A DNA stretch of 26,389 nt, taken from the IMG/VR virus record IMGVR_UViG_3300037189_002449, positions 1 to 26,389 of that record. The stretch is one strand, 5' to 3'. A program made the position numbers and the translations under genes. This document shows, piece after piece, positions 3,703-26,178 of this stretch. Position 1 is the first letter of the stretch, and every line of letters starts with the position of its first letter. The DNA comes from a virus. The notes beneath the pieces are model-generated. The model was not told the origin of the DNA. It did not search any database and saw only the letters and a list, made by a program, of their open reading frames with translations.

Positions 3703-6700
3703 ATTGGACACCTACTCAATCTATCGATCATCATATTGTCAGCGTTCAGCTCATCTAGCAACATGCGCGGAGTGATCGTTTCACTGACAATCTCGCCGGT
3801 GTCTGGATCGATCCTCTCAGCAGTAGGAAACTCCATGTCCAGCAAAGACTCACCAACTGTCGGGATGTCAATATCTTCTTCCGCAACTGATGACTTGACG
3901 CCGACCGTCTCTCTGCCTATATCTTGGTTGGAGGTATTCCCCATGCGACTATTTAGGTTTGACGGTTCCGAGATCGGAGCCGTCTCAGATAATGGCCTTG
4001 CCAAGTTGCTCGTTGGGTCAGATTGGCGGCCGAGCGACCCTTCCAGAGCAATGGCCCTTGAGATATTGGCTGACGAAAGAGCTGTAGAGCTTTCAGCCAC
4101 AGAGGCTGCAGATGCTTTAGCATCACGCGGCGCACCGACCCCAATCTTCTGAGCAAACGACGGATCAAGCGTAGCTTGCACGTTGCCATACAGCTCAATC
4201 ATCTTGGCTTCAGCGGCCAGGCGATCTTCGATTGACTGCAGCGGATCGCGCGAAATTTCGTACAACTTGTGACCGCCCTTGTTTTCTTTGGCATCCAACA
4301 TGCCAGGCGGCCATATCTGGATTTCGCCAAGCTGCCCGTCATCAAATCGCACCATGAGCTTGCGATCAAAGTATCCAACAGGCGTGACCGACCATCCCTC
4401 ATCAACTAGGTGAAACTTGGCCGCTAGAGCTGCAACAAAGTTTTCAGCTTCATCAAACGTGCGGGCTGTGATGCCGGTACGGGCGACATCGGTAATCTTT
4501 CGGTAGTCGCCGTCGTACTTGTCTTGCACCTTTTCCAGTGCGCGATCCGCCGTTTTGATTGGCGCAGGCTCGAACTCAAGATCAAGCAAACGTGCGGCAG
4601 CTTGGGCCGCATCATTCAATTCGGCATGATTGCGTTCAGCCGCAGACATAACGGCGTCGAGATTGTCGTATGGCTGTGTGGCCTTCAGATTAGATCTCAG
4701 CTCATCAAATTGGATTTTGCTGAGAGACGGGACGCTGATGAAGACACGATCGACCCCAGCCACCATAGAGCTGATAGTGGCAGCAACATCGAACTGAGGC
4801 GGCAAGAGCGCTTGCATCTCTTGGAAGAAATCCTGCTCGAAGATACGCGCCTGGTCTTCAGCACCAGATCCACCTGGATCGTCAAAAGAGTCTAGCTGTT
4901 CTTGCTCAATGCTATTTCGTACTGAGCGTTCCGGCGCTGCAGCATTGATATTGCTTCCTGCATCGCTAATCGCTGCGCTATCATAGTCGCCCGAGTCAAT
5001 TGCTCGTCTGACAGATTCGACGAAATTTCGAGTAGCCGAGGCAATATTCCCAGTGGATTTTGCGCTTCGAGCGGCGGCGTTGAGCGCATCTGCGATTGCA
5101 CCTTTTCGGTTGGCTTGACTTTGGAGGAAGGCAATTGCGGTGCCATCTTCATTAATCCTTTTCTGGTTTGACTCGGTGGCAAGCTGGTTGCCCTCGCCTT
5201 CGATCCGAGACTGGTTCTCTACTAGGTTTTTGAACGTAGAAAGATCTTTGCGGAGCTGCTTCTGTGCGCGATCTAGGATCTTAGCCCGTTCTGCAAATAG
5301 GCTTTCAACCACCATCTCTTCGCCAAACAAGTTTTCCTGCATCTCACGAGAGATCGGTGTCGCCATGACCTGGCGCACGATCGCCTCGGCCTGAAACTCA
5401 TTGGCAGGATCTGCCTTCGCCAGAACACCCATCGCTGCTGTCTGCATGTCAGGGTCGCTTGATGCCAGCCTTCCAACAATGGCGGCATAGTTCGACGGGA
5501 CGACCTCATTGCGCACCATGCCCCAAGCCTCATCGCTTAGGTTGGTCAGCTCACGGGCCTGCCGTACAAACGGCGAGCGCGGCGGCAGCTCGGTGACGCG
5601 ACCAGGCGCCGTGCGCAAGACCTTGGCAGCATCGATTGCCGTTCCGGTTCCTTCAGAGATGTTCTTAAGTGCGGCAATCACCATTGCCTCTTGAGGGCTG
5701 ACGCCATCAACCTCTCTCAGTTTCATGCCGTACATTACGACATTTTGACTTGGGTCAGAAGCCTTGATACGCTTTGCCAGACCGACGCGCTGGTGGCCGT
5801 CTGCGATAAACTTACTACCATCAGCGTATTCGTAGATGGTGACGTTTCCAGCTTTGATTGGATCCCAGGTGGTGACGCCCTGCAGACGTTCGGTCACGCC
5901 GAAAGCATCGCCGCCAGCCTTAAACTGAAACGTCTCAGCATCGACTTCGATCTCGTCTGGGTCAAACTTGAAGATGACGCCATCAAGGTTGTCGTATGCG
6001 TCAATCGATTTGGCTGGTGCTGGTGGCGTCTGAGGCTGGTTCGAGATCGCTGGCGGCTGATTGGCCTCGACAGCGGCAATTGCATCAGACACGCGTGCCT
6101 TATGCTCGGCTTGACCTTTTGCCGAAGGGGTCAGCGGATTTGCTTCTGCAAGATCTTCCGCGTTTTGCGCTTTGAGCAATAGCGTCTCAGCTTCCGGCGA
6201 CAGCTTGACACCAGACTTGAGCAAGGCTGCAATGCCAGATTTTGCCTGGTTAATCGTGAAGGATACCCCACGATTAGCGCCGGCGATAGCAACCGGGATT
6301 GCCGCGCCGCCAACCGCTGCAAGGCCAACATTGGTGAAAAAGTCTTCAGACGTGTATTCAAGGCCCAGAGTTGCGTACCATTCAGCAATCTCAGGCTGCT
6401 GGATGCTTTCGATGGCTGCCCCGATCAAAGCCTCTTGCATCGCAAGACTCCACAGGTTTTTGGCAGCGCCGCTAAGGAGCATAAGTTCGAGATTGACGGG
6501 ATCTACAATCGCAGCCCCAGCTCCACCGACAAACTGCGCCATGTAGTTGCCGGCTCCAGGGGACCGACCGAAAAGCTCATCGGCCTCCCCCATCGTGCTT
6601 ATCGCGTCTTTAATGACATCTTTCCGCAAATTAAAGTCAAAATTCGGATCGGTGATGCGCGTCACAAAATCTGCATCAAACTTGTCCTTATTATCAGAAA

Positions 6701-20420: not shown

Positions 20421-20438
20421 GATGCCTCTCCTCTGGAC

Positions 20439-20580
20439 TTCCTCACCTCACCACCTCACTTACCTTCCTCACCTCCTCACCTTCCTCACCCCTATATAGG
20501 GGGGGTGAGGAGGTAAGGTTCAGGTGGTATTCTTCCTCACCTTTCCTCACCTTTTCCTCACCTAAAAGCAGCAGGTGAGG
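20439..20580. repeat. Iteron-like GGTGAGG array, candidate replication origin
   Basis: Six exact copies of TTCCTCACC occur on the + strand (20439, 20465, 20482, 20533, 20543, 20554), plus TCCTCACC at 20474 and weaker ACCTCAC copies at 20445 and 20453. Two inverted copies (GGTGAGG) lie at 20504 and 20574. The three copies at 20533-20562 are 10-11 bases apart, about one helical turn. The centre has the palindrome CCCCTATATAGGGG at 20489-20502 (extended as an imperfect arm with TGAGG). It lies in the gap between the primase-helicase gene and the next gene. Iterons next to a helicase or primase gene are the usual plan of iteron origins. On the + strand the same tract is C-rich and G-poor, which would also suit Rho. 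Confidence 0.6.
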
Positions 20581-20606
20581 ATGCATATTTGTCACGCTTT
20601 TCCGTC

Positions 20607-23579: not shown

Positions 23580-24339
23580 AGAATTCGTTGCGGAGTTCTT
23601 CGTTGCCGGACCAGTAAAAGGACGACGGGTTGACCGGCACGATCGCCTTGGCTTCGTCTTTGTCGAGGCGGGCTAGGAATGCCTCCATGCGGAAAATCTG
23701 GGCCTTTGCCTTAATCAGCAGTTCGGTCGGATCGCCGTCCTCTAACAGTGAGGTTTTCTTCTCGCTGACGTACAGGAACTTGACAGCCATGTTGCCGTTG
23801 GCTTTGGCGTAGATGGCACGTTGCAGCTGATGTTCCGGCGACATCTGCGACGGGATGCGGCCAGTGGTTTTGAGATCGATGACGAGGCCGTGATCTGGGT
23901 AGACCAGATCCAGGTAGCCAATCACCGGAATGGTCCAGCCATCGCCCTTGGCGGTGATCTCAACCTTGTTCTGATGGTGGTCACCTTCCTCGACATCTGG
24001 GAAGTACGGCTTGCCGTACTTTTCCAGCTCAGCGACTGCCAGTTCTGTCATGGGTTTGATCCGATCGCGCTCACGAGTGGTGGCCTCATCGCCGATGCGA
24101 TACTTGCCGTCAAACTTTTCGACAGCCTGATCGATTGCCTGCGTGATGGGGTTGCCCAGCAGAGTGGCAGCCACTGCGTCTTCGGTGCAGATGCCACGCC
24201 ATGCGGCTGGTCCCATTGGTGTGCGCTTGCCGTGCAGATACTGCATCACCCAAACATCTGGCGCATTGGCCCACAGGTTTATACTGGATGCGGACAAGTG
24301 GTCGATATTGTGTCTCGTGAAGCCGTCAGAGTGCGTCAT
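23569..24339 (-). CDS. PD-(D/E)XK nuclease, RecB/Cas4-like exonuclease
   Basis: The 256-residue protein starts at ATG 24339 with an AAGAGAAAG-type site, overlapping the previous gene by 14 bases. The N-terminus has SINLWANAPDVWVMQYLHGK and a WRGICTEDAV block with Glu53. The core motif is GYLDLVYPDHGLVIDLKTTG: Asp144, Asp155 and Lys157 form the D...DxK signature. It is followed by the QLQRAIYAKANG stretch with Gln and Tyr, as in the PDDEXK_1 (RecB-like) family. Such phage enzymes usually supply a 5'-3' exonuclease for recombination or DNA processing, here next to an SSB-like protein and a helicase-primase. Substrate and polarity are not visible. Confidence 0.82.
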   Translation of the reverse strand: MTHSDGFTRHNIDHLSASSINLWANAPDVWVMQYLHGKRTPMGPAAWRGICTEDAVAATLLGNPITQAIDQAVEKFDGKYRIGDEATTRERDRIKPMTELAVAELEKYGKPYFPDVEEGDHHQNKVEITAKGDGWTIPVIGYLDLVYPDHGLVIDLKTTGRIPSQMSPEHQLQRAIYAKANGNMAVKFLYVSEKKTSLLEDGDPTELLIKAKAQIFRMEAFLARLDKDEAKAIVPVNPSSFYWSGNEELRNEFYGI

Positions 24340-24706
24340 GTGCCATTCTTTCTCTTGCTAGGTAACAGAAATCGTCGAAATTTACGTCAGCCGTCACGTC
24401 CTCCAGCATCAGCACGCAGCGGATGGGCTGGCGATCGTATTTGTAAATCAAAACGGGAAGCTTGGCCGCGCGGTTGGCTGCAGCGCAGGCTTGCTGCCAC
24501 CAGGTGATTGACCCACCGATCGGGCCGGAGCTGTACCGCTTGAGTTCCAGCAGGTACGGCCATGCCGGATCGTCGGTGATCAGGTCACCGTATTCGGCCT
24601 GCTGATACTGCCGCAAATCCCGTGCAAACTTGATGCCCAGCTCTTGATACAGCAGCTGGGAAACCTCACGTTCAAAGTTGGCCCCTTTGCTTCTGCTGTC
24701 AACCAT
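24326..24706 (-). CDS. Resolvase-like PD-(D/E)XK nuclease
   Basis: The 126-residue frame starts at ATG 24706, overlapping the regulator gene's stop by eight bases. It begins SRSKGANFEREVSQLLYQEL (Glu12, Glu14), then AEYGDLITDDPAWPYLLELK with Asp41, Glu54 and Lys56 forming the D...ExK signature, and TWWQQACAAANRAAKLPVLI, with the Gln and Lys positions seen in archaeal-type Holliday-junction resolvases (Hjc-like) and related phage endonucleases. The small size and helical N-terminus favour a structure-specific endonuclease, for example branch resolution before packaging. A restriction-type role is less likely. Confidence 0.78.
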   Translation of the reverse strand: MVDSRSKGANFEREVSQLLYQELGIKFARDLRQYQQAEYGDLITDDPAWPYLLELKRYSSGPIGGSITWWQQACAAANRAAKLPVLIYKYDRQPIRCVLMLEDVTADVNFDDFCYLARERMAHDAL

Positions 24707-24881
24707 TTTGCATGGCCTTGCTGACGTATTCGGTTAATTTAACCAAGGTCGTTTCTCTGGCCTCCTGCCGGCCAGAAAGCAAACGCCACAGCGTTGTGTG
24801 CGCTATGCCTGATTGCCTGGCAACTTCAGGCAATGGCCGATCGGCGAGCATCAATCTGATTTCCTTGATTGTGTAGACCAT
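24699..24881 (-). CDS. Small HTH transcription regulator at the divergent promoter
   Basis: The 60-residue protein starts at ATG 24881; longer starts run through the control region and are not credible. Residues about 15-40 (RPLPEVARQSGIAHTTLWRL) are a clear helix-turn-helix: the second helix is LPEVARQSG and the recognition helix is HTTLWRLLSG. The C-terminal helix may dimerise. It is the first gene of the leftward series, and its upstream DNA carries operator-like palindromes, so it probably controls its own and the rightward promoters. Whether it is a Cro-like, CI-like or early-to-late regulator is not evident. Confidence 0.82.
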   Translation of the reverse strand: MVYTIKEIRLMLADRPLPEVARQSGIAHTTLWRLLSGRQEARETTLVKLTEYVSKAMQNG

Positions 24882-24894
24882 TGCAGCCACCCCG

Positions 24895-24908
24895 TTGCGG
24901 TTTCGCAA
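24895..24908. promoter_or_regulatory. Operator-like palindrome O-left (TTGCG-N4-CGCAA)
   Basis: TTGCG (24895-24899) and CGCAA (24904-24908) are separated by GTTT. The site lies 14 bases upstream of the HTH regulator start and just after the predicted -10 box of the leftward promoter, so binding there would hinder transcription start. It shares both arms with the site at 25003-25018. Confidence 0.65.
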
Positions 24909-24909
24909 G

Positions 24910-24938
24910 ACTATGCAGAAACCGGCGGGCAAAGGCAA
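24910..24938 (-). promoter_or_regulatory. Predicted leftward sigma-70 promoter for the HTH gene
   Basis: In the minus direction, TTGCCT (24938-24933, -35, 4/6) is followed after 17 bases by CATAGT (24915-24910, -10, 4/6), with an A/T tract upstream (TTTTTTTTAA on the minus strand, 24941-24950 region) that could be an UP element. The expected start lies inside O-left, about 22 bases before the regulator's ATG. Confidence 0.5.
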
Positions 24939-24972
24939 GTTAAAAAAAATTCGCATTCGCAATTTTAACCTG

Positions 24973-25001
24973 TTGACAGGTGTTGCGGCATGTCCTATGT
25001 C
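24973..25001 (+). promoter_or_regulatory. Predicted rightward sigma-70 promoter (P1)
   Basis: A consensus TTGACA (24973-24978) is followed by a 17-base spacer and TATGTC (24996-25001; only TAT matches). The perfect palindrome at 25003-25018 covers the expected start site, and a 61-residue gene follows. The -10 is weak, so the promoter may need an activator or extra contacts. Confidence 0.55.
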
Positions 25002-25002
25002 T

Positions 25003-25018
25003 ATTGCGTAGGCGCAAT
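25003..25018. promoter_or_regulatory. Perfect 16-bp palindrome O-right (ATTGCG-TAGG-CGCAAT)
   Basis: ATTGCG and CGCAAT are exact inverted copies with a 4-base centre. It begins 2 bases after the -10 box of P1, so it lies over the transcription start region. Arms and spacing match O-left. Single half-sites CGCAA (24958-24962) and TTGCG (24983-24987) flank the -35 box of P1. Confidence 0.7.
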
Positions 25019-25032
25019 GAGGAGAGAATGAG

Positions 25033-25218
25033 ATGAAGCAGATGGATTTGTTTGACCAGCCCAGCGCAAAGGGCATGGCGGGTGAGCGGCAATCGGACAT
25101 CGAAGACTTGATTGCCTGGGAGGAAAGCTTGGCGGCGGCTGTGTTTGCCAGGGACGAGAAGAAAGCCGATGCCTGGGTTGCCAAGGCCAAGTCAGGCGCA
25201 GTGATGCGGATTTGCTAA
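25033..25218 (+). CDS. Small unknown protein, first gene of the rightward series
   Basis: The 61-residue frame starts at ATG 25033, behind GAGGAGAGAATGAG. It begins MKQMDLFDQPSAKGMAGERQ and has a helical acidic region, DIEDLIAWEESLAAAVFARD, with a Lys/Ala tail. I recognise no domain. It is the leading gene of promoter P1 and probably an early protein. A function cannot be given from sequence. Confidence 0.75.
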   Translation: MKQMDLFDQPSAKGMAGERQSDIEDLIAWEESLAAAVFARDEKKADAWVAKAKSGAVMRIC

Positions 25219-25229
25219 GGAGAGATGGG

Positions 25230-25484
25230 ATGAAAATGATGGGATTTCCTTTGATTGAGGTTTCTAAGATCCACTACGCCAACGGCTACGACAATGACGC
25301 CAAGGCGCAGGAAGCTTTTAATCGTGTGAGCAACGAGTTGGGCGCGGCAGCCTGGGCAGACGCTTTCAGCGCTCCGAGCTTTGATGACTATGCCGAAGCG
25401 ATCGATGCGATCGATGACGAACCCTTTGTCAGCTATGACGCAGAATGGGATTTTAACAACGTGGCAAGCCGCCACCACTATTAA
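25230..25484 (+). CDS. Small acidic unknown protein
   Basis: I chose ATG 25230 (84 residues): AAGGAG lies 8 bases upstream, while earlier codons of the frame (including a TTG) precede that site. The protein has about 16 acidic and 5 basic residues. The second half (FDDYAEAIDAIDDEPFVSYD) is especially acidic with almost no basic residues. It ends in NNVASRHHY. No family is recognised. Strong negative charge in an early phage protein would allow DNA mimicry, but nothing else shows it. Confidence 0.75.
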   Translation: MKMMGFPLIEVSKIHYANGYDNDAKAQEAFNRVSNELGAAAWADAFSAPSFDDYAEAIDAIDDEPFVSYDAEWDFNNVASRHHY

Positions 25485-25496
25485 GGAGACAAAGAA

Positions 25497-25703
25497 ATGA
25501 ACATCTATCGGAACGTCAACTGGAAGAGCCGGGACTACGACTGCACCAACGTGGTGTATCAGGCAATCAGCGGCGACGAACAGCCGTGCAGATTTAGCGG
25601 CTTGCCTGCCCCAGAAAATGAGTGGGTCAAGGCAAGCGATATCCCGGCTGACATGCAGCCTATCGGCGGCTTCGGTTGCCACGAGTTTTACGGATACATG
25701 TGA
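25497..25703 (+). CDS. Small unknown protein
   Basis: The 68-residue frame starts at ATG 25497 behind AAGGAGACAAAGAA. It has three Cys (DCTNVV, QPCRFSG, FGCHEFYGYM) and aromatic residues, with ADMQPIGGFGCHEFYGY at the end. The Cys/His spacing is too loose to call a zinc site. No family recognised. It is in the same tight series as its neighbours. Confidence 0.72.
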   Translation: MNIYRNVNWKSRDYDCTNVVYQAISGDEQPCRFSGLPAPENEWVKASDIPADMQPIGGFGCHEFYGYM

Positions 25704-25714
25704 GGAGACGATCG

Positions 25715-25891
25715 ATGAAATACGAAGAACAGATCTTGCACCAGGCAGGCAATGCCAAGGGCGTCGAATACAAGCGGGCTGAGTTCGGTAGCTTTGAGGA
25801 GTTGGAACATTTCTTCCTGCAGAACCTGTGGGGCAAGAAGGGCATCAAGTCCAAGGTGATCGGAAAGGTGTTGATCTGGAGCGACAGTTGA
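25715..25891 (+). CDS. Small unknown protein
   Basis: The 58-residue frame uses ATG 25715, with GAGGAGACG upstream; ATGs earlier in that frame overlap the previous gene and have no site. It is helical and charged: EEQILHQAGNAKGVEYKRAE, then FGSFEELEHFFLQNLWGKKG and a short beta tail (KVIGKVLIWSDS). The stop codon overlaps the -35 of the next promoter. No family recognised. Confidence 0.72.
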   Translation: MKYEEQILHQAGNAKGVEYKRAEFGSFEELEHFFLQNLWGKKGIKSKVIGKVLIWSDS

Positions 25892-25915
25892 CAGACTGCC
25901 GACCTAGTGTATAGT
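25888..25915 (+). promoter_or_regulatory. Predicted rightward sigma-70 promoter (P2)
   Basis: TTGACA (25888-25893), a 16-base spacer and TATAGT (25910-25915, 5/6) form the best promoter match in the window. The TTGACA overlaps the stop codon of the preceding gene. A related operator-like site follows directly after. Confidence 0.72.
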
Positions 25916-25917
25916 TA

Positions 25918-25931
25918 TTGCGCGAACGACA
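25918..25931. promoter_or_regulatory. Degenerate operator-like site at P2 (TTGCG-CGAA-CGACA)
   Basis: The left arm TTGCG is exact; the right arm CGACA matches CGCAA at three of five positions. It begins 3 bases after the -10 box, exactly as O-right does at P1, which supports a common regulator. Confidence 0.45.
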
Positions 25932-25955
25932 TATTAGAAACAAGGAGACGACCAA

Positions 25956-26150
25956 ATGCGCGAAGCCATCATCAGCGACACCACCCGCAGCGTCAGCATT
26001 GAGAAAGATATTGTCGAGTTCGACGGCATCGACCGTGAGATCTGGTCTATTGTCATCGACTGCCCGGTCAACGGGATCAGCGTGTGCGGCGAGTATTACT
26101 GCTCTCGCGAAGAGGCCACCGCTGCGATGCGCGAAATCTTCTTCGCCTAA
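25956..26150 (+). CDS. Small unknown protein, first gene after P2
   Basis: The 64-residue frame starts at ATG 25956 behind CAAGGAGACGACCAA. It is acidic and mixed alpha/beta (SIEKDIVEFDGIDREIWSIV, then CGEYYCSREEATAAMREIFF). Two Cys-containing stretches (IDCPVNGISVCGEYYC) could bind metal, but I see no classic pattern. No family recognised. Confidence 0.75.
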   Translation: MREAIISDTTRSVSIEKDIVEFDGIDREIWSIVIDCPVNGISVCGEYYCSREEATAAMREIFFA

Positions 26151-26178
26151 TCCAACTAGCAAACAAGGAGACAACAAT

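Follow-up and report, generated by a model that had tools for sequence, protein, structure and literature searches.

What controls the two operons that diverge from 24.88-25.02 kb in the genome of an uncultured aquatic phage? The window, as we call the whole stretch of DNA analysed here, is a linear viral record of 26,389 bases, and its portal protein, 57-62% identical to those of HTVC010P-like podoviruses, places it among them. A sequence-only reading of this DNA had proposed that one operator design recurs at three promoters, where it would be read by a small helix-turn-helix (HTH) protein. In order to follow this up, relatives were gathered by searches with the HTH protein and with the PDDEXK nuclease encoded downstream of it, the latter yielding 80 related loci. 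The HTH homologues, 60-98% identical in protein, fall into four subgroups: A (the window, L041 and L048), B (L055, L057-L059 and L010), C (L042-L047) and D (L049-L054). The portals of five HTH-bearing relatives from subgroups C and D are 87-96% identical to that of the window.

The probable regulator gene and the divergent operons

The HTH gene occupies 24699-24881 on the minus strand and its 60-residue product, read from 24881 to 24699, is MVYTIKEIRLMLADRPLPEVARQSGIAHTTLWRLLSGRQEARETTLVKLTEYVSKAMQNG. As the sequence-only reading had it, the gene starts 14 bp from the first operator, O1. Its stop overlaps the start of the PDDEXK endonuclease gene (24326-24706, minus strand; Pfam PF24608, E 3.8e-16), which indicates that the HTH gene leads a leftward operon running on through the nuclease, an exonuclease, a RepA-like helicase and further genes. 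On the other side, five small early ORFs run rightward (25033-26150, plus strand); they belong to no known family, with no Pfam match above cut-off. The predicted leftward promoter, PL (TTGCCT-17-CATAGT, 24910-24938, minus strand), has a -35 block that is kept between subgroups, and the predicted rightward promoter, PR or P1 (TTGACA-17-TATGTC, 24973-25001, plus strand), lies together with its half-site at the same place in 19/19 HTH-bearing relatives.

Elsewhere in the window, a 186-bp gap adjoining the RepA-like helicase gene (20421-20606) holds ten copies of CCTCACC in both orientations; the whole window has 13 copies against 2.85 expected. This cluster is a candidate set of replication-origin iterons.

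Profile matches of the HTH protein are weak, yet consistently of the HTH type: for Pfam HTH_3 the window protein scored E 0.0027, below the gathering score, and its best homologue E 3.3e-5. A sequence search of solved structures returned weak LacI/TetR matches only. The AlphaFold model (pLDDT 89.5) has four helices, and the nearest solved folds are Aca11, the N-terminal domain of AcrIIA15, DdrO and SinR (Foldseek E > 0.05); TM values of 0.65-0.80 to Aca11, DdrO and SinR point to a lambda-repressor-like fold for the modelled protein. The predicted recognition helix spans residues 28-35, of which H28 and T30-L34 are invariant among homologues down to 60% identity. No match was found by tblastn against isolated phages (50,697 records), and no prophage copies were found among the genome contigs searched. 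The best reading of the protein is a Cro/Aca-like repressor that would bind and repress at the sites described below.

Three proposed operators at PL and PR

Exact TTGCG-N4-CGCAA occurs just twice in the 26-kb window, 109 bp apart: at O1 (TTGCGGTTTCGCAA, 24895-24908), whose arms had rightly been called exact, and at O3 (TTGCGTAGGCGCAA, 25004-25017). These two palindromes cover the predicted starts of PL and PR, respectively. The 16-mer at 25003-25018 (ATTGCGTAGGCGCAAT) had been described as a perfect palindrome; its 6+6 arms are indeed perfect, but the centre is asymmetric. In 400 dinucleotide shuffles of the window, exact matches averaged 0.11, two or more appeared in 2/400, and a pair within 150 bp in 0/400. 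When up to two mismatches were allowed, no enrichment was seen in the window (18 sites against 23 expected), and weight was consequently placed on exact sites, positions and conservation only.

The earlier inventory overlooked a third core operator, O2 (ATTCGCATTCGCAA, 24949-24962), which matches 9/10 half-site bases in the window and 10/10 in subgroups B, C and D. Two extra half-sites had been reported around the P1 -35 box; the one at 24958 belongs to O2, whereas the one at 24983, in the P1 spacer, is unconserved in the other subgroups. Neighbouring operators are separated by 54-55 bp, equivalent to 5.1-5.2 helical turns.

Three TTKCG-N4-CGMAA sites (9 or 10/10 half-site bases), spaced 54-55 and 55 bp, are present in 19/19 HTH-bearing relatives, although these share ancestry and the count therefore amounts to few independent events (the four subgroups plus the L142/L143 pair described below). 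Offsets from the HTH start codon are equally constant, at 15-17 for O1, 70-71 for O2 and 125-126 for O3. Between subgroups, ungapped identity around the operators is 91% in the half-sites, 43% in the central 4 bp and 41% in the flanks. The palindrome is not spread through the genome either, since nearly all TTKCG-N4-CGMAA matches of the 19 relatives lie in this intergenic region; outside it, the pattern was found at one place in the 19 records (G018, 3746-3759). A reversed control pattern has three places in these records. The conservation that the sequence-only reading called for is thus present, and its expectation that the motif would not be scattered was borne out. Conservation, spacing, co-occurrence with the protein and the shuffles together rule out chance or base composition for O1-O3, an explanation to which we give practically no credence, even if the more distant P2 site, taken alone, falls within chance expectation.

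The location of O1 and O3 over the start sites argues for repression by steric block. O2 lies exactly midway between the PL and PR -35 boxes, 20 bp centre to centre from each and ~52 bp upstream of both predicted start sites, with a spacing fixed in all subgroups. This would suit a dual regulator whose main effect is activation of PL and PR from O2, with repression through O1 and O3 only at high dose. We regard such a regulator as unlikely, as PR, with its consensus -35, should not depend on an activator, and an activation surface is not known.

Association of the proposed operators with the HTH protein

Another 33 relatives carry a different protein in the slot of the HTH gene, mostly a ribbon-helix-helix (RHH) protein of 53 aa or similar and in a few cases something else; three of them are isolated Roseobacter phages (CRP-811, CRP-821 and CRP-406). 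Upstream of the slot gene, sites with at least 9/10 half-site bases were found in 0/33. Conversely, the L142/L143 pair encodes, in another phage context, a homologue of the HTH protein (64% over 53 residues), and the gene that follows resembles a DNA methyltransferase; here an exact site (TTGCGGAGGCGCAA) and one 9/10 site lie 18 bp apart, neither of them more than 55 bp from the start codon. Sites in all 19 relatives with the HTH protein and in none of the 33 without it, together with those of L142/L143, indicate that the operator travels with the protein and that the 54-55 bp geometry is tied to the nuclease-linked locus. Hence the proposal that the HTH protein is the probable reader of the sites gains support from sequence comparison.

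Other slot proteins have surroundings of their own. In the RHH relatives L063-L066, L072-L074 and L013, the same promoter region contains ATCCTAT/ATAGGAT-like sites, two or three per relative, and the rest of the locus has few of them. Within the RHH relatives these sites occur in one subgroup only, and they are possible operators of the swapped RHH regulator. L061 and L062 encode a third kind of slot protein, HTH-like and 106 aa long; upstream of this gene in L061, no operators of the TTGCG type were found.

The same co-occurrence bears on a host protein as reader. TTGCG-N4-CGCAA is the consensus of NnrR, and an open-access literature search for an operator of this consensus returned the NnrR paper only (PMC1274295). 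The NnrR motif of alpha-proteobacteria, ctTTGcgnnnncgCAAag, is the same as the operator consensus (PMC1274295), and Roseobacter, an alpha-proteobacterium, hosts phages related to the window phage. A CRP/FNR-family regulator of the NnrR type could then read the sites, allowing the phage to sense nitric oxide or anaerobiosis. We consider this very improbable. NnrR is a host activator of denitrification genes, whereas O1 and O3 cover start sites, and the phage protein belongs to another family and is much smaller. Moreover, the sites go with the HTH gene of the phage: they are absent from CRP-811, CRP-821 and CRP-406, which have the RHH protein instead, and sites of the same type also accompany the HTH homologue of L142/L143.

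A further operator-like site lies within the early genes, at the internal promoter P2 (TTGACA-16-TATAGT, 25888-25915, plus strand), the only strong sigma-70-like match in its region. The site (TTGCGCGAACGACA, 25918-25931) reads TTGCG-CGAA-CGACA, with two mismatches. The claim that each site begins 2-3 bases past its -10 box was accurate for PR and P2, where the gap is an identical 2 nt, and was off for PL, where it is 1 nt. By count the P2 site is within chance expectation and is not significant alone, but two close relatives, L041 and L048, have conserved both P2 and the site. P2 lies at varying distances from the regulator gene (1,040 in the window, 1,593 and 1,085 in L041 and L048, respectively), and in L048 the gene after P2 differs from that in the window. 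Over window positions 25914-26160, identity to L042 is 96%, the counterpart there being the PR/O3 operator with the first early gene, and the homology of the apparently exchanged early-gene stretch (window 25888-26150) begins where the -10 box ends. From these alignments the P2 site looks like a PR-type operator that came from a subgroup C phage along with the gene behind it, which would explain its right arm, CGACA being the O3 arm of subgroup C. Subgroups thus seem to have exchanged an early gene together with its promoter and operator. The idea of one operator design at three promoters therefore stands at PL and PR, where the sites are exact, and depends at P2 on conservation and descent. 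The match of the P2 site to the operator is weak, and we treat it as a weaker satellite beside the three core operators.

Proposed control and comparison with known systems

The likely reader is encoded first in one of the two operons that its sites adjoin, which would lead to negative autoregulation and early-operon shut-off. We consider it likely that 24.88-25.02 kb is a symmetric control region with a single regulator, which autoregulates the PL operon and shuts the PR early operon. The 60-aa protein, with its predicted Cro/XRE fold, presumably forms a dimer and would bind TTKCG-N4-CGMAA at O1, O2 and O3. Host sigma-70 RNA polymerase would fire PL and PR early in infection, after which the accumulating HTH protein would block PR with its small early genes, PL itself and, weakly, P2. 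Early genes would then be off and the leftward replication operon capped by its own first gene. The most likely role of O2 is to help the protein occupy O1 and O3 or to tune the promoters, and it could also bridge the outer sites or act on polymerase. The sites, their spacing, their conservation and their co-occurrence with the protein are observed; binding, dimerisation, repression, timing and the role of O2 are inferred. Were PL the promoter of the entire left arm, capping it would call for other late promoters.

Phages lambda and 434 are among the closest known systems. Their OR/PR/PRM region has Cro-type repressors in a CI/Cro pair and three palindromic operators ~20-24 bp apart between divergent promoters. 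The phage described here shares the small HTH protein, the three palindromic operators, the divergent promoters and, as proposed, autoregulation. With these operators and a modelled fold that is Cro/CI-like, the HTH protein could serve a temperate phage as maintenance repressor in a lambda-type immunity switch, which we nonetheless think quite improbable. There is one regulator here rather than two, the operators are 54-55 bp apart, and the outer ones lie over start sites, while the central one is upstream of PL and PR alike. No pair of opposing repressors was found flanking the operators: the first gene past PR differs between relatives, none of these genes looks like a second repressor, and no conserved one was seen beside PR. 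The HTH gene points the same way as lytic replication genes and is apparently transcribed together with them. A search for tyrosine integrases (PF00589) found none in nine large relatives, the longest reaching 37 kb, whose records may be incomplete. The related phages of the CRP-822 type are described as lacking an integrase in almost all cases and as probably strictly lytic (PMC12629253). With no second repressor found beside PR and no tyrosine integrase in the nine large relatives, we do not read the locus as a CI/Cro switch of the lambda type.

The consensus recurs in apparent prophages. At L018 (885-994), L025 (2193-2300) and L036 (9121-9228), up to four TTGCG-N4-CGCAA-type sites accompany regulators unrelated in sequence to the window protein. 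Further loci, L019, L023, L027, L030, L034 and L035, have a double palindrome between divergent genes of the small-HTH type (motif ..RVLxG..PGxxFIAG..). The control regions of L018/L025/L036 and of L019/L023/L035 resemble the window in having several such sites between divergent HTH-like genes; they differ in that the regulators look unrelated in sequence and the context is likely temperate, so that the palindrome appears to be of independent origin there. Since the consensus recurs with dissimilar HTH proteins, the palindrome by itself does not set this locus apart; the fixed three-site geometry and the strict link to the protein do.

Control of divergent promoters by autorepressors of the Cro, Aca and C-protein types is already known, and to call this locus an undescribed genetic switch was therefore too strong. 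Aca autorepressors are small HTH proteins that act on inverted repeats in the core promoter (PMC9410906). Aca11 and the AcrIIA15 N-terminal domain are the nearest solved folds to our model, a likeness at the fold level, and O1, adjoining the PL -10, is likewise an inverted repeat in the promoter of the regulator's own operon. The differences are that two divergent operons would be controlled here and that no acr gene was recognised, the early genes being of no known family.

The CRP-822-type roseophages CRP-811, CRP-821 and CRP-406 share the gene order of a small regulator-like gene, a PDDEXK nuclease and divergent early genes, but the product of their slot gene is the 53-aa RHH protein, and they lack the TTGCG operators. 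A bolder reading, which we hold tentatively and think rather doubtful, is that of a one-protein symmetric switch in phages thought to be strictly lytic, with three equidistant operators coordinating both directions, perhaps by bridging or looping, and with regulator and operators forming a cassette exchangeable with an unrelated RHH regulator and its operators. Early gene control in HTVC010P-like and CRP-822-type aquatic phages appears undescribed, and the CRP-822 paper mentions no promoter or repressor (PMC12629253). The locus provides a concrete predicted regulator with its operator consensus, together with three promoters, and in a sister group the regulator is a different one. With a 60-residue protein and short DNA, the exchange of regulators between phages that are alike in other respects can thus be put to a direct test.
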